From Aphrocallistes beatrix (Eukaryota; Porifera; Hexactinellida; Sceptrulophora; Aphrocallistidae), in contig OY725499.1 in the NCBI GenBank assembly GCA_963281255.1, positions 4,705,421 to 4,769,420 of the forward strand: a stretch of 64,000 bases of DNA. The letters are read 5' to 3'. This document shows positions 1-64,000 of this stretch, one piece after another (positions within the stretch are counted from its first letter, which is position 1; each line of letters starts with the position of its first letter). Both the position numbers and the translations under genes were made by a program. A model generated the notes under the pieces. That model made no database searches, was not told the origin of the DNA, and saw only the letters and a list, made by a program, of their open reading frames with translations.

Positions 1-1000
1 TTTCTTCAACCGACATCCACAAGGATTTGATGGAGGTTTATAATGATAGAACTCTTCCATATTCCACGATAGTTGACAGGACCCGACGTTTTCGTGAGGG
101 AAGAGAGTCGATAGAAGATAAGCCCAGAGCAGGGAGGCCGATTTCCGGCGCCAGTGACAAATTTGTCCTCGAGGTTTCCGAATTACTTGAAGAAGACCCC
201 CTATTTCATTGATGGAGATAGCTAATGCAGTTGGGGTCTCAACGGGAACCGCTCATACCATTGTGCATGACAATTTTCAATTTAGGAAAATCTGCGCTCG
301 GTGAGTCCCGCATGCACTAGCACAGGCCCAGAAAACTAAGAGGGTTCAATGTGCTCAAAAGTTGCTTTCTGACTTCGATAGAACCGACTCCAGGAGTCTA
401 TTCGAGATCGTGACTGGTGATGAGACTTGGGTGCGTTATAGCGAGCCTTTGTCAAAGGAAGCTAACAAAGTATGGGTAGCTAAAGGCCAGGACCCACCAA
501 TAATCCCTCGATATGACTTCCGGAACCCCAAGGTTATGTACTGCATATTTTTTGATTCTTATGGTCCAGTGTGCCAGATTTGTGTCCCCAAGAATACCAC
601 TATTACTGGATCATTTTACATGAGTGAGTGCCTATCTGAGGTTGAGAAATTCTACCACAATCGACGGCCAAGGACTGGAACTCGAGGATTGAGATTATTG
701 CATGATAATGCCCGACCCCACTAGACCAAACTGGTAAGGGAAAAGTTGGAAAGTCTGAGAGTTGTAGAGCTAGATCATCCTCCCTAATCACCAGACCTCG
801 CTCCATGCGACTTTTGGCTCTTCCCTAAGCTGAAGAAACACCTTTCAGGGAGGGAATTCGAAAGTCGGCCTCACCTCGGATCTACGATTTTTCAGTATAT
901 GAAAGGTATACCACGTGGAGACTTCAAAAAAGTTTTTTGGATTGGATTAAGAGGCTAATACTAGTTATACAGCATCAAGGAGAGTAGTTCGAGAAATTGC
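1..1000 (+). pseudogene. mariner transposase pseudogene (D,D34D type), 5' end cut by window
   Basis: This is a degenerate transposase of the Tc1/mariner superfamily. The N-terminal helix-turn-helix part is visible at 27-205 (RFREG then EDKPRAGRP). The catalytic core follows: VTGDETW (first Asp) near 410-430, LLHDNARPH (second Asp) near 697-721, and SPDLAPCDFWLF (third Asp) near 790-825. I count 34 residues between the second and third Asp, the mariner spacing. The copy is dead. The frame shifts near 205, and there are stops at 302-304 (TGA), at 722 (TAG just after ARPH) and near 786. The left terminal repeat lies outside the window and I could not place the right one confidently. Confidence 0.9.
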
Positions 1001-2149: not shown

Positions 2150-2284
2150 ATTGATTATATTATTGGGTTCGCTTATTTTGAGTCTGCATGATATGAAATT
2201 AAATATACGTATCTCAACTATTACCAACGTTTGATTGACTGTTTATTTCCTAGTTTTACTCTTTCCTTTTGTGCAATCCTTTAG

Positions 2285-5200
2285 ATCTTCTTACAGAGAT
2301 TCGGGATAGAGGAGATGATTTTACTGAGCTCTATGAGCAAGCTTGCCTAGAAGGTGAGCATGACGTTCAGTTTTTCAGGATTTTGATAGTGGGACCTGAA
2401 GGAGTGGGAAAGACTAGCTTACTGAAAGCTTTGAAAAATCAACCTTTCAATGAAAATGAGGATTCTACAAATCTCATTGATAAAACAGATATTACTATTG
2501 CGGATGTAGGCATGGAATGGATTCAAGATGTGAATGTAAAAGATCATTTAATCGAGACAAGAGAGAATTGCGCTGCTAATGTAGCCATATACAACTTTCA
2601 AAATGAAAAGGAGACAAGAAGTACTAATATAAAAAAGGTTTCATATGAACAAGATCCTGTAGGACAAGTTCAGGTTAAACCAGTTGATGAAATTCCTGAA
2701 GATCAAAATTGGGATCAAAAAAATCCCAGAGATCAGGTTGGGAAAAACAACGTGCCTGAAAATCAAGGTATAGGGAAGAATAATCCTAAAGATCAATTTA
2801 CCGATAAAACTGTTTCCGAAAATCAAGTGATGGGAAAGACAATTCCTAAAACTAAATTTAAGGATAAAAGAGTTCCTGAAAATTTATTCACGGAAAAAGC
2901 TATTCCTAAAGCTGAAGTTGCAGATAAAAGGGTTCCTCAAAGTCAAGTTACGAAAAAAACAATTCCTGAAGATCAAGTCAGGAAAAATATCATATCTGAA
3001 AATCAAATTAACGAGAAGACATTTACTGAAATTAAAATGAAGGGAAAAGTAGTTAATGAAGAACTCGTGGATAGGATACGGAAAAATTTAGATAACGACC
3101 ATCCCTCTGATCCGCTCAAATTTTTCACAGTTTGGGATCTAGCAGGACAATCCTTTTTATTCAGTATGCATCCTCTGTTCCTTGCACAAAAAGCTGTCTA
3201 CCTAGTCGCTGTTGATCTCTCGGTTAGCCTCAATGATAAAGTTATTTTTAGGAAAGATAGAAAGTTTAAAAGATTGGATAGGCGTGAATTGGAAGAGAAA
3301 ACATACTTGGATATAACATTATACTGGATACGTACCATATACTCTGTGACAAGTTCTGCTGGAAATAAAAAGGGAAAATGGAAATCTAGAATTGTGATAG
3401 TTTTTACTAAATCTGATAAAATACTTAATCCTGAAGATAAAGCTAAAGCTAACTTTGAGGAAATTAAGAGAAATCTCAATCAGAAAACTAATTGTATGGA
3501 GATGGTAGACAAGAAATATCACATAGTAAGTTCAAAAGTGAGGTCTATTGAACATTTAAAATCGTTAAAGAATTATATTATCAGTAAAGGCGAACTTTTA
3601 AACACAAAACTACCCATCAACTGGTTAGATTTTGCTTTAAAGATTTTTTCACATGAAAAATCTGCTTTGGGCGGAAGAGATATTGAGAAGTTCGCGAATG
3701 ATGCAGAATGTGAGGGACCCGTACAGATCCTGGAGTGGTTCCACTCAATAGGAATTTTCTTCTTTAGAAGAAACATTCTATTCAAGTCACCGTCTGATTT
3801 GTTAGAGGTGATTTTTCATATTATTGCGCCAGAGTACTTGTATGTAAAAAAAAAATCAGATTTTCCACCGGACGTTGACAAAGCTGTGGAGAAAGCACTT
3901 CCAGACATTGATAGAGCTATGAATGAAGCACTTTTAACTGAAACATTTCTAAACATTATTCTAGAGATTAACTCCCTTCTCCATGTTAAATCTGAGATAC
4001 TTCAGCTATGGGGAGAGTTTGGTATAATATTGTACGAACACAAAGAACAACAGGAGTACTACATTCCTTATTTGTTCACTCAAGACTTAGAAAATGTTTA
4101 CAATTCTAAACCAGATTATCAAAACACTCTAATTCTCTACATTTATTTTTCTGATTTCCAGATACCCACTTCATTCTACTTTGCTTTCCTATCACTTTGT
4201 GTCGGAAGAAATCCTGAATCAGTTCTGGATCATGGATTTGATTGGGTGAGGTTTAAATGGGATGATAACATTACCTGCATAGTTGATAGTCCTAAAGAAG
4301 ACCCATACATCCGTATTATCCTTCTGGGGATCAATTTAACACATTCCTCATCTGATATATCCTCTCTAACCCTTCAACTCGAAGAATGGATTCTAGACAT
4401 AAAACTTACTAACATTGTAACTGGGAAAAATGCGAAAATAGTTCTTAACTGTCCTTGTGGTTCGTTTAAATCTAAACCTATTATTCCTTGTGCTTATTAC
4501 GAAGCTTATATAAAGTGTTTACCTTATGAGCCATTAGTCTGCAAAAAAATAGACCAAGAAACCTCAAAATATAATCAGTATTCTTGGTCATTTTTTAATA
4601 GGTACACAAATCCATTCAAAAATATCCCTTCTCAACTAGGAAAGGACTTTCTTGCGAAAAAAAATCCAAAATTATGTGAAGACTTTTTTGAGGGAAATAC
4701 TACCTTTGATCAGTTAAACTTGATACCTCTTCTGAAAGATTTGCGCATAAATGATTTGATTGATTATGATGAATTTGCTGAATTTTATCAGTTGAAAGAG
4801 ACTGAGAAGAGAAATTTTTTATTAGAAAAGCTTCCAAAGGGAAAGGCATGGGCTCAGAAATTCTATGAAATATTGAAACATAATAATGATTATCGCGATG
4901 CTACAAATTTGTTTGAAAAATATGTTATTGAATGGCTCAGTTCAGATAAACTATCAGAGAACCCAGGTTTCACGCGATATCCATTTTATCACAATCCTTG
5001 TGGAGTCTGTCTTATAATCAACATTTGTAACTTCGACGATGCCGAGGGAATTAGGAGGAATGGCTCCGAGGCTGATGTTCTTAATTTAGAACAGACTTTT
5101 GAAAGTATGAATTTTCTGATTCGTTCATACCAAGATTTAAAGCGGTCTGAATTTCTAGAAGTGTTGAACGATATTCGCACTTTAGATCACTCAGATTATG

Positions 5201-5769
5201 ACACATTTTTCTGTATAATAATGTCGCATGGTGATGAAACGGGGATATTTCCAAGTGACGTAGCTACAGAAGATCAAATCTCTATCAAAGAAATTCGAAA
5301 TCTTTTCACAGATGAAAACTGCGAAAGTTTAAAAGGAAAGCCTAAAATATTTATTGTTCAAGCATGCAGGGGAGATAAAAAGCACGAAATCCAGAATATA
5401 AAGAAAGGTTCATCAAAATACACGGATCTAGACTCTGGCGAAACTCCCAAGCCCAAAACTGAAACTCCTCAGAAAGAAATAGAACAATCTAGGAGAGAAC
5501 AAAAGGGTACGATACCTGCTGATTTTTACACACCACAAGCAACAGTGAAAGAATATGTCTCATATCGTGACCCCATAGAAGGAAGCTATTTTATTAAGAC
5601 TCTATGTTCAGTTTTGAAAAAACAGAGATTCAACCATCATCTGGTTGATATTATGATAGAGGTGCGTAGACAAGTATCTGAAGAAGAAATAAAAATAGGA
5701 ACACAAATAACACAACAATGTACAGAAGATGATAATAACACATTGAGGCACCCATTTTTTGTATATTAA
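2285..5769 (+). CDS. Roc-COR GTPase fused to CARD and caspase domains (5' exon missing)
   Basis: The exon opens after a CCTTTAG acceptor (2283-2284) with a split codon, so at least one upstream exon is missing; the first in-frame Met (about codon 84) would lose the P-loop. Codons are numbered from 2269, where the open frame starts. Domains in order: Roc GTPase with P-loop GPEGVGKTS (42-50), thirteen exact 10-residue repeats (142-271), DLAGQ (290-294) and TKSD (380-383); COR (about 445-700, ILEWFHSIGIFFF); a CARD-like helical domain (about 799-885); and a caspase (about 905-1166). The caspase has catalytic His987 in MSHGDETG and Cys1033 in QACRG. Its p10 starts near 1083 and contains YRDPIEGSYFI. 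All key caspase residues are present, so it is likely an active cysteine protease gated by a ROCO-type switch. Known ROCO and caspase families suggest cell-death or immune signalling. I know of no standard name for this fusion. Confidence 0.88.
2692..3081 (+). repeat. Coding 30-bp tandem repeat (13 decapeptides) inserted in the Roc GTPase domain
   Basis: Thirteen units of exactly 30 bp encode variants of (I/V/N)P(E/K)(D/N)Q-x-x-(D/G)K-x. They lie between the P-loop and the DLAGQ motif, where switch I would be. The translated units alternate IPED/NPKD-type and VPEN-type starts. They are rich in Lys, Glu, Gln and Asn, which suggests a flexible or extended insert of variable length. Confidence 0.9.
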
Positions 5770-11200: not shown

Positions 11201-14200
11201 ATGTCTTCTATGACAGTTAATATGCAGAATTTAGTGTTCTTCTTAAAAACGGAAGTCTCCTCTGGAATTTGGAAGAGATTGCTCCTCACTTACAGATTTG
11301 GTGCTCTTGAGTTGGATTTGGAAGAAGCTTTTAAGTTTTGTTTAAAAAGAAAGATAATCCAAAAGGATTTGATAAACTTAAGTGTTGCCTTTCAGAGTGT
11401 CGAAAGAGATGATCTTGCGTCTAAACTCCAACCATATATGTTGTCGTTTTCTGAGATGAGTGACACTGAATTTGAGAATTATTTTTTATTTGTTACTAAG
11501 CAAAATAAGAAAAAACATTATAGATATTATACAGAAGATAATTCTGGTTAGTTCATTAAGTTATCCCATAGCCTACTATACATAAGGCCTCACAACTGAT
11601 TGTGGATTTTGGACCAGGGATGCGGAAGAAGACCGTTGAACTAATGCATGAGCTGCCTTAAATCATTTACAAAGCACTATAGAGCTTAGGAATATATTAT
11701 CAGCATATATAAATATGGTGTCAAAGTACCCATATCCATCGTTAAAATTTGATTAATCACCATATGGTTGCGCAATAGGTTATATTTGTGACAAATTTGG
11801 TGATTTTCAGAGGCCGTTTAGGGGCACTTCTAAGTGTTTTTACTGTAAAATTTTTCGCATAGAACTGAGATATGAATGGGTTAATACGAAAAATTTGGAA
11901 TTTTTTCATGGAATGTTGGTACATTCCAGTGTTGCTATGGAAACGTGTTTTGGTCAGTTGGCGTTATATCTTGAAAACTGCAATGGCTACACATTCAAAT
12001 GTAATTCCATTTGATAGCGAATATACTACTTCCTATTAAGTGATAATATAATTTCGACCTCTAAATTCAATAGTTTATGAGATATTCGACAATGTACCAT
12101 ATTGGTCACATTTGATAATTTGTCGATTATCTCATAAACCTTTGAATTTAGAGGTTGAAATTATATTATCACTTAATAGGAAGTAGTATATTTCCAATCA
12201 AATGGAATTACATTTAAATGTCTAGCTCTTGTGGTTTTCAAGATATAATCCCAACTGACCAAAACACGTTTCCATAGCAACACTGGAATGTACCAACATT
12301 CCATGAAAAAATTCCAAAATTTTCGTATTAACCCATTCATATCTCGGTTCTATGCGAAAAATTTTACAGTAAAAACACTTAGAAGTGCCCCTAAACGGCC
12401 TCTGAAAATCACCAAATTTGTCACAAATATAACCTATTGCGCAACCATATGGTGACTAATCAAATTTTTAACAATGGATATGGGTACTTTGACACCATAT
12501 TTATATATGCTGATAATATATTCCTAAGCTCTATTCTGCTTTGTAAATGATTTAAGGCAGCTCATGCATTAGTTCAACGGTCTTCTTCCGCATCCCTGGT
12601 CCAAAATCCACAATCAGTTGTGAGGCCTTATGCATAGTAGGCTATGGTTATCCTTACTATTAAAACTCGATTAATGTTTATATATATCTGTAACGAATTG
12701 ATTGAAGAAACTGCCGGTCATAGAAAGCTAATTTTTGGCATGTGGGAGTATTTTGGCTATGGCTCCAGTAAGTTCTGAGCTCAGAGCAAAATGTCGACTC
12801 ATCATGGAATTATGACGTCATTGTCACATTTTTAAAAGTTAAGCAACACAGTTATTCGGGCATAACTCAGCCATTATAGGAGATAGAAGGCTGAAATTTT
12901 AATAGAATCTGTATACTAATATACCTCACATATGATGCGACTTTCATCAAAAAATGATGACTCATCACTTTGTTATGACGTCATCATTACGCATCAAAAA
13001 TTTTAAAATTGACAAATTTGGTGATTTTTCGAGTGATATCGATTAGCACAGTAGAACAGACATATTTAGAGATGTTATCTCCCTTATAATTAACCAATGT
13101 GACTCCAGGCGACCGAAGGGAGCCTCCGGCGGACACGAAGTGTCCGCCAGCCGCGCAGCGCAATCAAGCGCGAAGCGCGCTTGTCCTTACTATTAAAACT
13201 CGATTAATGTTTGTATATATATATATATATCTCTGTTACGAATTGATTGAAGAAACTGCCAGGCCCAGAAAGCTGATTTTTGGCATGTGGGAGTCTTTTT
13301 GGCTATGGCTCTAGTAAGTTCTGAGCTCAGAGCAAAATGTCGACTCATAATGGAATTATGACGTCATTGTCACATTTTAAAAAAATTAAGCTACACAGTT
13401 CTTCGGGCATAACTCAGCCATTATAGGAGATCAAATTTTAATAGAATCTGTATACTAACACGTCTCACATATGATACAACCATCATCAAAAAATGATGAC
13501 TCATCACTCTGTCATGACGTCATCATTACCCATCAAAATTTATATGCACTCTGGACTTGTCAATATATGAATTTTGATGGTCAAGATTTCTTGTTGAGTA
13601 GTGTGAGCGATATTCTCGACATCACTGGTATTCCTATTGCAAAAATATTCAATATATACCTAACGTAACTAAATCTCAAAAATTTGCTCGATATTGTCAC
13701 TTTTGATTTTTTAGAGTCGTGTATTCCCAAATCGTATTTCATATATGTCATTACAACTGAAAATATGGCTCAACATTGGTCTTGATTATATACGCTTTCG
13801 TTATAGTAGAATGACTTTTAGGTAGCATGTTTTGTTGATTGTTATTCAACCCCATACTTGCAAACTGTCCCGTTTTTAAATGAAATTTTCCCATTATATG
13901 TCCCGATTTTTTTAATTCTATGTATAATACTTTTTTATTGCGTCCCGCCATGTCCCGCGAAATTCAACGCTGCTTCCCTTTTTTATCATGGCTCAGGTTG
14001 GCTATGCAACCCAAAATTTACTTCTGTGACTATTTTCTTATTTAATGTGCATACTAAGATTTTAAAATACCCTATAATTTTAACATTTGTATTTCTACAG
14101 GGATATATGACCTGTTTAACCTGAAAGAACTCATAGAGAGACTGAGCAGAGACGACATCAAGAAACTGCTCGATGCTCTGTCAGTACCAGAAGGTGTCTA

Positions 14201-17200
14201 CCATTGGGAATCTGATGCAACATACTTTCTGATCGCGTTGAAAGGATGGACAGAATTCAACCCTTTCAGTTTCTACAAATGCCTTAACTCCGTACGACCA
14301 GACTTAGTTCCTATCGCTCTCAATATCAAATGGTTGTGCACTAACTACCCTGTAACTCTAACCACAGAACCATTAACCATCAAAAGCTTCATTGAAACGC
14401 TACAGAATGGAATATCGATCCTAGACTTGAAAATACTGCACATCGAGCACTACAAAGGAAAAACCAGTGAGGAAGTTTGCTTTGAAACTACGATGCAACT
14501 TTTGGTTACAAACAATTTGATTCAAGGAGACTTGTCCAGTTTATCTCAACTACTGAACAGCCTCAAACTGAACGAACTTGTACAAAGACTCCAACCGTAC
14601 AAAGCAGCCTTTCAAACTATGTCAGATCAAGAATTCACTTCCAAATTCAAGAAAGAATTGACTCGTCTTGGAAAGCAAATAGTCGAATGGGAAAATTTAG
14701 TGAAAGTCCACCTAGAAACCCAATTCAGGGACGTGAAACAGATGTTAGGGAGTGATACGGCTGTCAGCCTAGAGAAGGTGTACGTCGATCTGACAATACT
14801 CAAGCAGATGCCGAGAAGAGTGAAACTAGAAGATGAGACGACATACAACGAAATTGCATATTTGAGGAAAATTGCGAATAAAGAAGTTGAAGTTTCTCCG
14901 ATAAACTTCACTGAAGAACTGAAATCCTGCGACCCGTCCAAGCCAGAAATATGGTGTTTCATCGGAAACCTCGGATGCGGTAAAACATTCCTGTGCAACC
15001 GCACCGCACTCAGATTCGGGAATAACGAAGTATCCGCATTCTCCTACTCTCTGTGCATCCCCTGCAAGAATAAAGAGTGGCACGAGATGGAGTCTTCACG
15101 TGTGGACGCAGGTTTCCCAATCACCACCGAATTCATTTGTCAATGGCTTTGCCTCGGTCTACCAGTCGGTCCCAGTTGGACGACACAACTGGCAAAGCAC
15201 ATCCATATACAGACGGAGAAGGACTGCTACTGATCGTAGACGGTTTGGACGAATTCACAAAAGATGTCCCCTTCGACAAAACTCTCCTCTTCCTCCTCCT
15301 GACCAGACAGACTCTGACACGGTCCTTCATCCTACTGACCAGCAGGCCTGGCGCCTGGACAGATGTGTCAACTTCGCACCAGCTCCACATCTCCACCTTC
15401 TTCCAAGTGTTGGGGTTCTCTCCTGAACAGAGAGACCTGTACTTCGAGAAACAATTTGAGGACACTTCCCTGTTCGATCGGTGCACTGGCCTCCTCGATC
15501 GTTACGACGAGATGAAACAGCTGTCTCTGATTCCAGTGAACGCGTCCCTGTTCGCTGCCCTGCTGAAAAGTGAAGAAGGAGCTCGCATCCACACACTGAC
15601 ACAACTCTACTACGAGCTGATTCTGTACCTGATACGGCGACAGCTGGACCGAATGGGATTCGAAGAATTAACTGAAGTAAACGAAATCTGTGAGCTGGAT
15701 AGCGGCGTTGTGGAATGTCTGCACGAGATCGGTTATATCGCGTACCAGGGCGTGGCCATGAGGGAGATGATCTCCGACAAAAAGGTGCCACTGCAAATTG
15801 GAAGTGTGAAGATGGCCAGCCACTGTCTGGGTCTCGTGCACGAATATGTGAGAGAGGAGAAGATGGGTTACTTCACGAAGGTGTGGTCTTTCGCTCATCT
15901 GACCATCCAAGAGTTCATTGGTGCCATCTGGCTTCATAGCACGAAATGGCACGACCAGTGTCTGTCCGTGAGGTTCATTGTGCATACGAACGACGTGTTC
16001 TCCCAGTTCCGCATGGTGGTGAGATTCCTGTGTGGACTGTTGTCCGACCAGTCAATGAATGTGTTTTATCTCCTCTACAAACACGTGACACCTCGCCCTG
16101 TTCCCATCTCCCAACTTCCTGAAGTTATCCAACTCAGGTTTCAAAGTTATGTATTATTCAAATACACAGGCTGGAATGAATTCACGGAAAAGTTTCTCCA
16201 ACTGAACGCCATGCTACGTGAATCGAACTCTGAATCCATTTCGAAATATTTCAACGCGTGCAGACGTTTCCTGCCTGAATCAATCTGTTTGTACATTGAG
16301 AGTGCAGTGACTCCCAACGAGTGGCTCTGTTTCCTCGAATCCCTGCCACTTCTTAGCCACATCCACCTCATTTATGTGGATTCTTATTACGTCACTCCGG
16401 AACAACTCTTCCTTCTATTAGAGTCCGTTGAACAATGCTCTGTGGATTGTGTAGCATTGAAATTATCCAGGAAATCTAACACAGAAGTTCTCCCTTATGC
16501 GAATGTAATCCAACGCACTCAGCTGTCTAACACTAAGCTAAGTTTAGACCTGTACGATAGTAAGCTAACTGAAACTGAAACAGTCAAAGCCTTATTCTCC
16601 TCCTCAGCCAATCAGATTATATCAGGCCTGCGTTTATATAATAATGAATTTCCTCCTGACACTTACAGTCTGCTGACCAATCAGATATCAACTTGTCAGA
16701 AGTTAGTATATATACACAGTGACACCTCTGAAAGTGAAGTTCTATTTTCAGCTCTTTCCTCTGCCACACACATCAATGGATTACACCTCTATCTCATTCC
16801 CACTAAATACCATCAACAGCTGTTCTCTCTGCTGCCTACACTCCCTAACCTCAGAGAAATATCATGGGATGACTACTCTATTCTACCTCACATAACACAC
16901 CTCTCTACTCTGTCCTTCCTAGATATAGGATATAATCAGGATACTCGTGTCAACCTCTCAGACAGTCTGCTACAGCTGCTGGACTCAAACAGACACTCAA
17001 TCAGAGTATTGGAATTATGGAATTTAGAGAATATAGGATTCAGCAGTTTAGATGGATTTCTCCGTTGTTTGCATTTCTGTACTAATTTAGTACAGCTGGA
17101 ACTACATGATGCTCGTTTAAGTTGTGATGATGTCACTCTCTGGTGCTCGACACTTCACAGTCTCACTTCTTTACTATATTTGCGTATTTCCGATGTCTTC

Positions 17201-17458
17201 CTATCTGACTCAGGAATGTTGAGTCTGTGTAGAGGTCTTCTCTTCCATCCTACCATTAGATATTTGTGGGTATACGACTGTAAACTGAGTTCCGATTCCT
17301 GTCAACCTCTCAGAAACCTGATTCCTACCCTCACACAGCTGAAGTACCTGAAAGTGGATGGACTCTCTGGACCAGAAACTGAACCTATCAAACTCCTCAA
17401 GCTAACAGCTGATCAGTATGCTATAGAGCATGAACTTGATTCGGTAATAATAAGTTAA
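11201..17458 (+). CDS. NLR-type protein: tandem death-fold domains, NACHT, LRR; frameshift in NACHT
   Basis: Two exons are proposed. Exon 1 is 11201-11546 (ATG start; donor G|GTTAGT). Exon 2 is 14101-17458 (acceptor TTTCTACAG). The phase-1 join reads EDNSG-IYDLFNLKEL. Exon 1 encodes a DED-like helical domain. Exon 2 starts with a death-like domain (about 14103-14340), then a second DED-like domain (about 14360-14650) similar to exon 1; both end in LQPY...F..MSD.EF. NACHT follows, with Walker A GNLGCGKTF (about 14964) and Walker B LLLIVDGLDEF (about 15226). Next comes a winged-helix type segment (FAHLTIQEFIGAIW, about 15890), then LRRs from about 16,300 to the stop. The two NACHT halves lie in different frames: a shift of one base near 15195-15215 separates LAKHIHIQ from DGEGLLLIVDG. 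That means a pseudogene allele, a sequence error, or an unusual short intron. The likely role is as an intracellular immune sensor. Confidence 0.82.
11565..12648. repeat. Complete 1.08-kb palindromic repeat, family C, inside the NLR intron
   Basis: A near-perfect inverted repeat runs from CCATAGCCTACTATACATAAG to the inverse ending TAGTAGGCTATGG. Arms are about 520 bp, with a short spacer around 12,092-12,118. Arm divergence is low. There is no open frame of note. Other copies are 7131-8466 (interrupted) and 1867-2149 (one arm). It may be a foldback DNA transposon; I could not define a target duplication. Confidence 0.85.
12656..13187 (+). mobile_element. Family D element, full copy with GC-hairpin tail
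   Basis: The head is TTACTATTAAAACTCGATTAATG with a short TA run, then GTAACGAATTGATTGAAGAAACTGCC. The body contains two TGACGTCAT words. The tail is a chain of hairpins, including GGCGGACACGAAGTGTCCGCC-type (9-bp stem, GAA loop), ending GCGCGCTTGT. No protein is encoded. Related copies are 13188-13545 (+), and 55802-56313, 56313-56888 and 57177-57726 (all reversed). Confidence 0.75.
13188..13545 (+). mobile_element. Family D element, second tandem copy lacking the tail
   Basis: It directly follows the tail of the first copy with the same head (TTACTATTAAAACTCGATTAATG, longer TA run) and body. It breaks off after CATGACGTCATCATTACCCATC, before the GC tail. The tandem head-to-tail order matches that seen on the other strand at 55.8-56.9 kb. 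Confidence 0.7.
13546..14100 (+). other. Remainder of the NLR intron
   Basis: AT-rich sequence runs up to the acceptor TTTCTACAG at 14092-14100. Short open stretches here show no family resemblance and are not called. Confidence 0.5.
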
Positions 17459-59228: not shown

Positions 59229-62200
59229 TGCCTTTTGTCGGTGAGTGGGGTAGAGTGTGGCATTTTGAGAATGGAATCGGCAGATCTGAGCGGGAATGTA
59301 GGCATTTCATAGTGTAAAACAGAAGTGGAGTAAGGGAAAGCGAGTCTTTTGAGTTGGAAATAGCGTTTGAAAGGGCGTGAAAGGGTGTCTTTTTGTGGCT
59401 GAGGGGGGTAGAGTGTGGCATTTTGAGAATGGAATCGGCAGATCTGAGCGGGAATGTAGGCATTTCATAGTGTAAAACAGAAGTGGAGTAAGGGAAAGCG
59501 AGTCTTTTGAGTTGGAAATAGCGTTTGAAAGGGCGTGAAAGGGTGTCTTTTTGTGGCTGAGGGGGGTAGAGTGTGGCATTTTGAGAATGGAATCGGCAGA
59601 TCTGAGCGGGAATGTAGGCATTTCATAGTGTAAAACAGAAGTGGAGTAAGGGAAAGCGAGTCTTTTGAGTTGGAAATAGCGTTTGAAAGGGCGTGAAAGG
59701 GTGTCTTTTTGTGGCTGAGGGGGGTAGAGTGTGGCATTTTGAGAATGGAATCGGCAGATCTGAGCGGGAATGTAGGCATTTCATAGTGTAAAACAGAAGT
59801 GGAGTAAGGGAAAGCGAGTCTTTTGAGTTGGAAATAGCGTTTGAAAGGGCGTGAAAGGGTGTCTTTTTGTGGCTGAGGGGGGTAGAGTGTGGCATTTTGA
59901 GAATGGAATCGGCAGATCTGAGCGGGAATGTAGGCATTTCATAGTGTAAAACAGAAGTGGAGTAAGGGAAAGCGAGTCTTTTGAGTTGGAAATAGCGTTT
60001 GAAAGGGCGTGAAAGGGTGTCTTTTTGTGGCTGAGGGGGGTAGAGTGTGGCATTTTGAGAATGGAATCGGCAGATCTGAGCGGGAATGTAGGCATTTCAT
60101 AGTGTAAAACAGAAGTGGAGTAAGGGAAAGCGAGTCTTTTGAGTTGGAAATAGCGTTTGAAAGGGCGTGAAAGGGTGTCTTTTTGTGGCTGAGGGGGGTA
60201 GAGTGTGGCATTTTGAGAATGGAATCGGCAGATCTGAGCGGGAATGTAGGCATTTCATAGTGTAAAACAGAAGTGGAGTAAGGGAAAGCGAGTCTTTTGA
60301 GTTGGAAATAGCGTTTGAAAGGGCGTGAAAGGGTGTCTTTTTGTGGCTGAGGGGGGTAGAGTGTGGCATTTTGAGAATGGAATCGGCAGATCTGAGCGGG
60401 AATGTAGGCATTTCATAGTGTAAAACAGAAGTGGAGTAAGGGAAAGCGAGTCTTTTGAGTTGGAAATAGCGTTTGAAAGGGCGTGAAAGGGTGTCTTTTT
60501 GTGGCTGAGGGGGGTAGAGTGTGGCATTTTGAGAATGGAATCGGCAGATCTGAGCGGGAATGTAGGCATTTCATAGTGTAAAACAGAAGTGGAGTAAGGG
60601 AAAGCGAGTCTTTTGAGTTGGAAATAGCGTTTGAAAGGGCGTGAAAGGGTGTCTTTTTGTGGCTGAGGGGGGTAGAGTGTGGCATTTTGAGAATGGAATC
60701 GGCAGATCTGAGCGGGAATGTAGGCATTTCATAGTGTAAAACAGAAGTGGAGTAAGGGAAAGCGAGTCTTTTGAGTTGGAAATAGCGTTTGAAAGGGCGT
60801 GAAAGGGTGTCTTTTTGTGGCTGAGGGGGGTAGAGTGTGGCATTTTGAGAATGGAATCGGCAGATCTGAGCGGGAATGTAGGCATTTCATAGTGTAAAAC
60901 AGAAGTGGAGTAAGGGAAAGCGAGTCTTTTGAGTTGGAAATAGCGTTTGAAAGGGCGTGAAAGGGTGTCTTTTTGTGGCTGAGGGGGGTAGAGTGTGGCA
61001 TTTTGAGAATGGAATCGGCAGATCTGAGCGGGAATGTAGGCATTTCATAGTGTAAAACAGAAGTGGAGTAAGGGAAAGCGAGTCTTTTGAGTTGGAAATA
61101 GCGTTTGAAAGGGCGTGAAAGGGTGTCTTTTTGTGGCTGAGGGGGGTAGAGTGTGGCATTTTGAGAATGGAATCGGCAGATCTGAGCGGGAATGTAGGCA
61201 TTTCATAGTGTAAAACAGAAGTGGAGTAAGGGAAAGCGAGTCTTTTGAGTTGGAAATAGCGTTTGAAAGGGCGTGAAAGGGTGTCTTTTTGTGGCTGAGG
61301 GGGGTAGAGTGTGGCATTTTGAGAATGGAATCGGCAGATCTGAGCGGGAATGTAGGCATTTCATAGTGTAAAACAGAAGTGGAGTAAGGGAAAGCGAGTC
61401 TTTTGAGTTGGAAATAGCGTTTGAAAGGGCGTGAAAGGGTGTCTTTTTGTGGCTGAGGGGGGTAGAGTGTGGCATTTTGAGAATGGAATCGGCAGATCTG
61501 AGCGGGAATGTAGGCATTTCATAGTGTAAAACAGAAGTGGAGTAAGGGAAAGCGAGTCTTTTGAGTTGGAAATAGCGTTTGAAAGGGCGTGAAAGGGTGT
61601 CTTTTTGTGGCTGAGGGGGGTAGAGTGTGGCATTTTGAGAATGGAATCGGCAGATCTGAGCGGGAATGTAGGCATTTCATAGTGTAAAACAGAAGTGGAG
61701 TAAGGGAAAGCGAGTCTTTTGAGTTGGAAATAGCGTTTGAAAGGGCGTGAAAGGGTGTCTTTTTGTGGCTGAGGGGGGTAGAGTGTGGCATTTTGAGAAT
61801 GGAATCGGCAGATCTGAGCGGGAATGTAGGCATTTCATAGTGTAAAACAGAAGTGGAGTAAGGGAAAGCGAGTCTTTTGAGTTGGAAATAGCGTTTGAAA
61901 GGGCGTGAAAGGGTGTCTTTTTGTGGCTGAGGGGGGTAGAGTGTGGCATTTTGAGAATGGAATCGGCAGATCTGAGCGGGAATGTAGGCATTTCATAGTG
62001 TAAAACAGAAGTGGAGTAAGGGAAAGCGAGTCTTTTGAGTTGGAAATAGCGTTTGAAAGGGCGTGAAAGGGTGTCTTTTTGTGGCTGAGGGGGGTAGAGT
62101 GTGGCATTTTGAGAATGGAATCGGCAGATCTGAGCGGGAATGTAGGCATTTCATAGTGTAAAACAGAAGTGGAGTAAGGGAAAGCGAGTCTTTTGAGTTG

Positions 62201-64000
62201 GAAATAGCGTTTGAAAGGGCGTGAAAGGGTGTCTTTTTGTGGCTGAGGGGGGTAGAGTGTGGCATTTTGAGAATGGAATCGGCAGATCTGAGCGGGAATG
62301 TAGGCATTTCATAGTGTAAAACAGAAGTGGAGTAAGGGAAAGCGAGTCTTTTGAGTTGGAAATAGCGTTTGAAAGGGCGTGAAAGGGTGTCTTTTTGTGG
62401 CTGAGGGGGGTAGAGTGTGGCATTTTGAGAATGGAATCGGCAGATCTGAGCGGGAATGTAGGCATTTCATAGTGTAAAACAGAAGTGGAGTAAGGGAAAG
62501 CGAGTCTTTTGAGTTGGAAATAGCGTTTGAAAGGGCGTGAAAGGGTGTCTTTTTGTGGCTGAGGGGGGTAGAGTGTGGCATTTTGAGAATGGAATCGGCA
62601 GATCTGAGCGGGAATGTAGGCATTTCATAGTGTAAAACAGAAGTGGAGTAAGGGAAAGCGAGTCTTTTGAGTTGGAAATAGCGTTTGAAAGGGCGTGAAA
62701 GGGTGTCTTTTTGTGGCTGAGGGGGGTAGAGTGTGGCATTTTGAGAATGGAATCGGCAGATCTGAGCGGGAATGTAGGCATTTCATAGTGTAAAACAGAA
62801 GTGGAGTAAGGGAAAGCGAGTCTTTTGAGTTGGAAATAGCGTTTGAAAGGGCGTGAAAGGGTGTCTTTTTGTGGCTGAGGGGGGTAGAGTGTGGCATTTT
62901 GAGAATGGAATCGGCAGATCTGAGCGGGAATGTAGGCATTTCATAGTGTAAAACAGAAGTGGAGTAAGGGAAAGCGAGTCTTTTGAGTTGGAAATAGCGT
63001 TTGAAAGGGCGTGAAAGGGTGTCTTTTTGTGGCTGAGGGGGGTAGAGTGTGGCATTTTGAGAATGGAATCGGCAGATCTGAGCGGGAATGTAGGCATTTC
63101 ATAGTGTAAAACAGAAGTGGAGTAAGGGAAAGCGAGTCTTTTGAGTTGGAAATAGCGTTTGAAAGGGCGTGAAAGGGTGTCTTTTTGTGGCTGAGGGGGG
63201 TAGAGTGTGGCATTTTGAGAATGGAATCGGCAGATCTGAGCGGGAATGTAGGCATTTCATAGTGTAAAACAGAAGTGGAGTAAGGGAAAGCGAGTCTTTT
63301 GAGTTGGAAATAGCGTTTGAAAGGGCGTGAAAGGGTGTCTTTTTGTGGCTGAGGGGGGTAGAGTGTGGCATTTTGAGAATGGAATCGGCAGATCTGAGCG
63401 GGAATGTAGGCATTTCATAGTGTAAAACAGAAGTGGAGTAAGGGAAAGCGAGTCTTTTGAGTTGGAAATAGCGTTTGAAAGGGCGTGAAAGGGTGTCTTT
63501 TTGTGGCTGAGGGGGGTAGAGTGTGGCATTTTGAGAATGGAATCGGCAGATCTGAGCGGGAATGTAGGCATTTCATAGTGTAAAACAGAAGTGGAGTAAG
63601 GGAAAGCGAGTCTTTTGAGTTGGAAATAGCGTTTGAAAGGGCGTGAAAGGGTGTCTTTTTGTGGCTGAGGGGGGTAGAGTGTGGCATTTTGAGAATGGAA
63701 TCGGCAGATCTGAGCGGGAATGTAGGCATTTCATAGTGTAAAACAGAAGTGGAGTAAGGGAAAGCGAGTCTTTTGAGTTGGAAATAGCGTTTGAAAGGGC
63801 GTGAAAGGGTGTCTTTTTGTGGCTGAGGGGGGTAGAGTGTGGCATTTTGAGAATGGAATCGGCAGATCTGAGCGGGAATGTAGGCATTTCATAGTGTAAA
63901 ACAGAAGTGGAGTAAGGGAAAGCGAGTCTTTTGAGTTGGAAATAGCGTTTGAAAGGGCGTGAAAGGGTGTCTTTTTGTGGCTGAGGGGGGTAGAGTGTGG
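59229..64000. repeat. 158-bp tandem satellite array, about 30 units, continuing past the window
   Basis: Head-to-tail units of 158 bp (GTAAAACAGAAGTGGAGTAA...GTAGGCATTTCATA) show no difference that I can see between units, except the first partial unit (TTGTCGGTGAGTGGGG in place of TTGTGGCTGAGGGGGG). The + strand is purine-rich. Because 158 is not a multiple of 3, a 104-codon open frame on the minus strand recurs in every unit; this is a repeat artefact. Each unit contains one GGAATGT. A centromeric, pericentromeric or subtelomeric position is possible but not shown. Confidence 0.97.

Follow-up and report, generated by a model that had tools for sequence, protein, structure and literature searches.

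We report a predicted protein in which a Roc GTPase, a COR domain, a CARD-like block and a caspase follow each other in a single chain. It is encoded on the forward strand, at positions 2285-5769, of a 64,000-nucleotide stretch of the glass sponge Aphrocallistes beatrix (contig OY725499.1 of assembly GCA_963281255.1, positions 4,705,421 to 4,769,420), which was analysed as a whole and is called the window below. The sequence shows these parts and their order: a GTPase that looks complete comes first, COR and a probable CARD follow, and a caspase that retains its active-site residues comes last, all in one frame of about 1,161 codons and one exon. That Roc, COR and caspase belong to one protein is very probable. 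The best explanation that we can offer is an animal member of the Roco family with a CARD-caspase as its output, which would act in innate immunity as a single-chain initiator caspase gated by nucleotide; we consider the odds of this reading to be about even.

A single long exon

The stop-to-stop frame extends from 2254 to 5769 (1171 amino acids) with zero internal stops. Such a length is not due to chance, since shuffling the bases of the first 10 kb 100 times gave no frame longer than 165 amino acids. Codon position 1 had the highest GC content in all seven exon segments, including the one that contains a repeat insert (see below), and its lead ranged from 0.06 to 0.235. In the flanking DNA, used as a control in 25 overlapping 500-bp pieces, the lead was 0-0.12, and 23 pieces did not exceed 0.042. 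The weakest exon segment was 4201-4700, for which a larger lead was found in 2 of the 25 flanking pieces. The earlier note on this DNA, made by a model from the letters alone, had described one continuous 3.5-kb exon of 1160 residues, and both the open frame and the periodic GC content agree with this description.

A division of the region into two genes, with a hidden intron or separate promoters between Roc-COR and CARD-caspase, is very improbable. The frame is free of stops throughout, a hidden intron would itself have to be in-frame and stop-free, and codon position 1 leads in GC in all three segments of 4201-5766, even if the first of these is the weak segment just mentioned.

An acceptor-like AG is located at 2283-2284 on the forward strand, directly before 2285, and the bases 2263-2282 are 80% pyrimidine. 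This agrees with the exon start proposed in the earlier note. Position 2285 is, however, a second codon base in this frame, and a literal reading from there meets many stops. An exon joined at this candidate acceptor would begin one base into a codon. No in-frame ATG was found upstream of the P-loop within the open frame. Because of this lack, and because of the pyrimidine-rich tract with an AG ending at 2284, the natural reading is that 2285-5769, closed by the TAA stop at 5767-5769, would be the last exon of the gene, with the first exon or exons, perhaps encoding a sensor, upstream. The 5' exon candidates from an ATG-plus-donor scan of the first 2.2 kb were weak and short, several of them lay inside a transposase remnant, and none was trusted. 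Residues are numbered from the codon at 2269.

The caspase domain

The caspase (residues 912-1149, 5002-5715, forward strand) is securely recognized. The Pfam family Peptidase_C14 (PF00656) matched it with E=3.9e-48 and 164.6 bits, against a cut-off of 21.4. Among the best 60 of 239 matches to solved structures, the animal caspases caspase-3, -8 and -9 were at the top, the best of all being caspase-3 (E=1.1e-34). The motifs SHGDETG (residues 986-992), QACRG (1031-1035) and YRDPIEGSYFI (1099-1109) are present. In the alignment with caspase-3 the SHG histidine and the QACRG cysteine are retained, and so are arginine-bearing stretches on both sides, whose arginines would form the pocket for aspartate (S1). 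The predicted catalytic residues are thus H987 (5227-5229) and C1033 (5365-5367), both on the forward strand, and the domain looks intact by its motifs; the earlier note had called it apparently active. The linker between the large and small subunit aligns with the inter-subunit region of caspase-3 and holds a candidate self-cleavage site, TDLD/SG (DLDSG, residues 1053-1057, 5425-5439, forward strand), at which self-cleavage is plausible.

The Roc GTPase and its repeat insert

The Pfam Roc model (PF08477) matched the N-terminal part of the protein above its cut-off (E=5.9e-12, 46.3 bits; cut-off 27). An insert divides the match into two parts, either of which was also recognized alone. The first part (2356-2469, forward strand; E=1e-5) contains the P-loop GPEGVGKTS (G1, residues 42-50, 2392-2418) and a switch-I-like threonine, T67 (2467-2469). 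The second part (3115-3588, forward strand; E=2.2e-5, 25.1 bits, just under the cut-off) contains DLAGQ (G3, residues 290-294, 3136-3150), TKSD (G4, residues 380-383, 3406-3417) and a G5-like SSK (3529-3537), and phmmer related it to the Roc domains of LRRK2 and CtRoco. In an alignment with prokaryotic Roco proteins, described in the next section, G42, G47, K48 and T67 agree with 74 of 74 rows. The Roc domain with P-loop, DLAGQ and TKSD of the earlier note is well founded.

The insert (residues 68-261, 2470-3051, forward strand), on which the earlier note is silent, places about 190 lysine- and asparagine-rich residues between the switch-I-like threonine and DLAGQ. About 12 degenerate decapeptides of the type xVPENQVxxK can be seen in it by eye, Tandem Repeats Finder (TRF) reported a period of 60 with 3.2 copies at 2784-2978, and its predicted local distance difference test (pLDDT) score was below 50 in the AlphaFold (AF2) model of residues 1-800. 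In a Ras-like domain this region shifts with the bound nucleotide, and the insert could for this reason tune or blunt the Roc switch.

A divergent COR domain

The presence of a COR directly after Roc (COR-A followed by COR-B, residues 445-710, 3601-4398, forward strand) is supported. We judge it to be a divergent form, because the Pfam COR-A and COR-B models gave no match to the protein, whole or in pieces, while other tests support a COR. A phmmer search of the PDB sequences linked the second Roc half and the start of the COR weakly to CtRoco (3dpu, E=7.6e-4). For a more sensitive comparison, a degenerate WDFGGQE pattern was used to fetch at least 114 loci from GTDB. These contain 102 motif-bearing frames of at least 250 amino acids. 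The 76 frames of sufficient length, which come from bacteria and at least one archaeon, were used to build a Roc-COR profile. The hidden Markov model (HMM) built from these 76 frames gave the whole window protein 74.1 bits. Residues 431-790 alone received 16.4 bits, the best of 500 shuffles reaching 8.2, and with a COR-only profile 12.8 bits, the best shuffle reaching 9.5. The shorter piece 451-790 received 10.8 bits with the Roc-COR profile, which is likewise above the best shuffle.

In hhalign the Roc-COR profile aligned in order with residues 287-688 (probability 97.5%, E 5.9e-12); for residues 431-790 alone the probability was 71% and the score 43.0, whereas no shuffle out of 60 scored higher than 28.95 (8.2%). 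Residues outside the fetching motif are also kept, namely G495 (73 of 73 prokaryotic rows), P600 (65 of 74), P633 (58 of 74), W659 (71 of 73) and G687 (59 of 73), and two near-invariant Roco positions are altered in the window protein, where W510 is D and G554 is A.

The AF2 model of residues 1-800, computed with 74 prokaryotic rows, had a mean pLDDT of 64.5 and a predicted TM-score (pTM) of 0.67, with 429 of the 800 residues at a pLDDT of at least 70. Ten-residue means were 72-94 over residues 431-710, and most of the stretch after 728 was below 50. When this model was submitted to Foldseek, ranks 1-31 were all Roco proteins (CtRoco, MbRoco2, LRRK1, LRRK2), including the COR-only structures 3dpt_A and 3dpt_B, and 30 matches had E <=0.001. 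The COR-like block pointed out in the earlier note is hence borne out by the prokaryotic profile, hhalign, AF2 and Foldseek, though not by the Pfam COR models.

A CPC motif (residues 728-730, 4450-4458, forward strand) possibly marks the end of the COR. By eye it resembles vPCnC, seen in 7 of the 74 prokaryotic Rocos; its columns hold zero prokaryotic letters in the Roco alignment, and the pLDDT there is below 50. Searches with NCBIfam and PADLOC were uninformative; the NCBIfam model SigV did match the COR piece, but far under its threshold (E=0.00063, 19.5 bits, cut-off 190), and this was taken as chance.

The CARD-like block

The helical block between COR and caspase (residues 814-875, 4708-4893, forward strand) is probably a CARD, judging from its sequence and its place just upstream of the caspase, where a CARD is expected. 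The Pfam CARD model matched a piece of 136 residues with E=0.0018 (18.7 bits) and one of 98 residues with E=0.0013 (19.1 bits), the cut-off being 23.9, and covered model positions 13-77 of 85; when the whole protein was searched, E was only 0.48. None of nine controls for the 136-residue piece (eight shuffles and one reversal) matched any Pfam family. The CARD-like block of the earlier note thus keeps a sub-threshold Pfam match in the expected place. That note had also looked to profile searches for COR and CARD as a test of its reading, and here the outcome is divided: Pfam calls neither above its cut-off, while the deeper tests for COR succeed.

A possible mechanism

Gating of the caspase by nucleotide, as suggested in the earlier note, is a reasonable idea, to which we give slightly less than even weight. 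The COR would pair molecules or keep them closed. A signal acting on Roc, or on a missing N-terminal sensor, would set the nucleotide held by Roc and in this way change the state held by the COR. Freed or clustered CARDs, together with the COR dimer, might then draw two caspase domains together and activate them by proximity, after which the caspase could cut itself in the linker, for which TDLD/SG is the candidate, leading to cell death or inflammatory cleavage. A single chain would in this case do the job that receptor, adaptor and procaspase share in an inflammasome or apoptosome.

The bacterial CtRoco has been described as forming mainly dimers when it carries GDP or no nucleotide, and monomers when it carries GTP (PMC5714945); a GTP-bound monomeric form has been described as well (PMC11052575). 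Because of this behaviour two versions of the mechanism have to be kept open. In the first, the dimer of the GDP state would pair the caspases directly. In the second, GTP would open the molecule and free the CARD for clustering. The second version is slightly favoured, since initiator caspases stay inactive in the resting state. The most far-reaching proposal, that the caspase is under the direct control of the LRRK2-type GTPase joined to it in one chain, that the insert tunes this switch and that the protein is the animal counterpart of bacterial Roc-COR-protease defence proteins, is tentative, and we would rather doubt than assert it in full.

Several results weigh against a nucleotide-gated CARD-caspase of the Roco family. 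Regarding the COR, besides the silence of the Pfam models, residues 451-790 scored only 8.5 bits with the COR-only profile, which is below the best shuffle (9.5). The AF2 model superposes only moderately on known Rocos: with the Roc-COR structure 3dpu and the COR-only 3dpt the TM-score, by target length, was 0.54-0.60 and the rmsd 4.4-9.0 A. Moreover, the alignment rows given to AF2 were all Rocos and pull the model to the Roco fold, so that the model partly presupposes what it is meant to test; this does not apply to the scores controlled by shuffles. Regarding the CARD, beyond the score under the cut-off, the unrelated family CRISPR_Cas9_WED, taken as chance, scores equally on the same piece (E=0.0013). 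The lone-sequence AF2 model of this piece is all-helical with a pLDDT of 46, Foldseek found no match for it at E up to 10, and a search of the piece against PDB sequences gave no match at E up to 10 either. The insert, placed directly after the switch-I-like threonine, could disturb GTP hydrolysis. The GTP-bound monomers of CtRoco, by analogy, run opposite to the simplest model, in which GTP dimerises the protein and activates the caspase, and that model may have the sign of the switch wrong. Finally, no relatives of the whole protein were found in plasmids, IMG/VR and GTDB genomes, the searches of the latter two reaching close relatives only.

Genomic surroundings

By its gene content the host is an animal. 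No second copy of the gene was found within the window at E up to 0.1. About 8 kb downstream, on the same strand, an NLR-type gene occupies 14058-17458, with a NACHT domain (E=1.1e-12), an NLRC4_HD2-like region below the cut-off and ribonuclease-inhibitor-type leucine-rich repeats (LRRs). The earlier note does not mention it. Two overlapping frames are needed to read it, and what looks by eye like a frame break near 15190-15230 might reflect a pseudogene, a short intron or a sequence error. A short frame at 11201-11551 (forward strand) resembles part of the N-terminal region of this NLR (36% over 59 amino acids, E=1e-6) and is possibly a remnant or an exon of an NLR paralogue.

This neighbour lends itself to another explanation, which we regard as unlikely: Roc-COR would merely scaffold or address the protein, and a separate receptor, such as this NLR, would switch the caspase on through contact between their CARDs, with no gating by the GTPase. 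CARD-caspases are indeed normally recruited by separate CARD proteins, and an NLR-type gene of the same orientation is at hand. The GTPase motifs of the window protein, on the other hand, look complete, which a mere scaffold would not need, and the N-terminal part of the NLR resembles a DED weakly (E=0.78), with CARD not matched.

Upstream of the gene, at 305-721 (forward strand), lies a mariner-type transposase remnant (Transposase_1, E=1.3e-8). The gene might accordingly be a decaying or unexpressed product of domain shuffling beside transposon remnants, open only by recent origin and lacking a stable function. The remnant, the lack of an ATG ahead of the P-loop and the frame break in the NLR neighbour would fit this view, which we nevertheless hold to be quite improbable, given some 1,161 stop-free codons, the lead of codon position 1 in every segment and the retention of both catalytic and GTP-binding motifs.

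Beyond the NLR, Pfam identified genes for a protein kinase, a CoA-transferase III, ribosomal protein L5, an Arf-type GTPase and a PP2C; the scan covered 10 frames, and 4 had no match. A satellite with a unit of 158 bp (30.2 copies, 99% alike, strong GC skew) occupies 59233-64000 and runs off the end of the window.

Comparison with known systems

The earlier note knew of no described protein with this architecture. This holds in part. Bacterial Roc-COR (AP-GTPase-COR) proteins are reported to carry at least 24 different C-terminal domains, a caspase included (PMC8195603). In full-text searches of one open-access library we found no animal Roc-COR-CARD-caspase. A printed animal precedent may nevertheless exist, because in a paper on sponge NLRs both CASc and COR are abbreviations explained for the same figure of domain architectures (PMC12909245); the list of abbreviations does not state that the two co-occur.

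In our prokaryotic set, 17 Roco frames had at least 625 amino acids after the motif, and the C-terminal parts of 10 of these were scanned by Pfam. Two carried CHAT (loci L009 and L101, E ~2e-33), three TIR (two above the cut-off and L092 below it) and one PNP_UDP_1; one showed only a sub-cut-off COR-B tail and a weak Fib_alpha, and three showed nothing. CHAT belongs to the caspase clan. L009 (3-2837) and L101 (3-3311) read LRR-Roc-COR-A-COR-B-CHAT on one frame, each domain above its cut-off. COR was positive in 10 of 10 prokaryotic genomes searched and caspase in 24 of 30 Roco-bearing genomes; in the 10 genomes searched for both, no frame shared by Roc-COR and a Pfam caspase occurred among the matches listed. 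None of the 102 Roco frames matched the window caspase in phmmer at E up to 10, and in six IMG/VR loci with a degenerate F(I/V)IQACRG pattern no frame longer than 60 amino acids matched it at E up to 1. The bacterial plan in print was hence reproduced here for CHAT only, not for a caspase proper.

The comparison with the prokaryotic proteins concerns layout and not descent: the effector, here a caspase, stands C-terminal to COR on the same chain. Their hosts are prokaryotic, whereas the window caspase is closest to animal caspases among solved structures. They have N-terminal LRRs, as do L009 and L101, and the available portion of their description mentions no CARD (PMC8195603). Ahead of Roc, Pfam found neither LRRs nor ankyrin or comparable repeats in the exon described here; such repeats are usual in the Roco family but not universal.

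With the animal Roco proteins LRRK1/2, DAPK1 and MFHAS1 (PMC6337361) the window protein shares the Roc-COR core. DAPK1 and some invertebrate forms are joined to death-fold or TIR domains, and Roc-COR with TIR, Death or kinase is in print for Aplysia and sea anemones (PMC9334734, PMC5094078). In contrast, a caspase or CARD output is not described for animal Rocos in the available portions of these three sources, and the terms 'caspase', 'CARD' and 'TIR' have zero occurrences in that of PMC6337361. The way in which Roco proteins relay their nucleotide state to the output domain is still an open question, one that underlies the role of LRRK2 in Parkinson's disease (PMC11052575), and a natural Roc-COR protein with a caspase output would offer a simple, quantifiable readout of the Roco switch in the form of substrate cleavage.

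The CARD initiator caspases caspase-9, caspase-2 and CED-3 resemble the window protein in the CARD-like block directly before the caspase, the histidine and cysteine and the Asp-containing linker. Here, however, the CARD-like block follows about 700 residues of GTPase and COR, and the CARD initiator caspases are not known to carry an NTPase on the same chain. With the NLR inflammasome and the Apaf-1 apoptosome the protein would have in common an NTP switch that brings caspases together. It differs from them in that a Ras-type GTPase with COR replaces the STAND ATPase and that the protease is on the same chain; Pfam found no NACHT or NB-ARC in it (nSTAND6 reached 14.8 bits, 27.7 being needed).

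The joining of a GTPase switch and a caspase on one chain is therefore not wholly new, considering the bacterial Roc-COR caspase proteins in print and the LRR-Roc-COR-CHAT proteins found here. If the proposed reading is true, the list of routes to caspase activation in animals would become wider, and animals would have kept, or reinvented, the bacterial plan of coupling a GTPase switch to a death protease.

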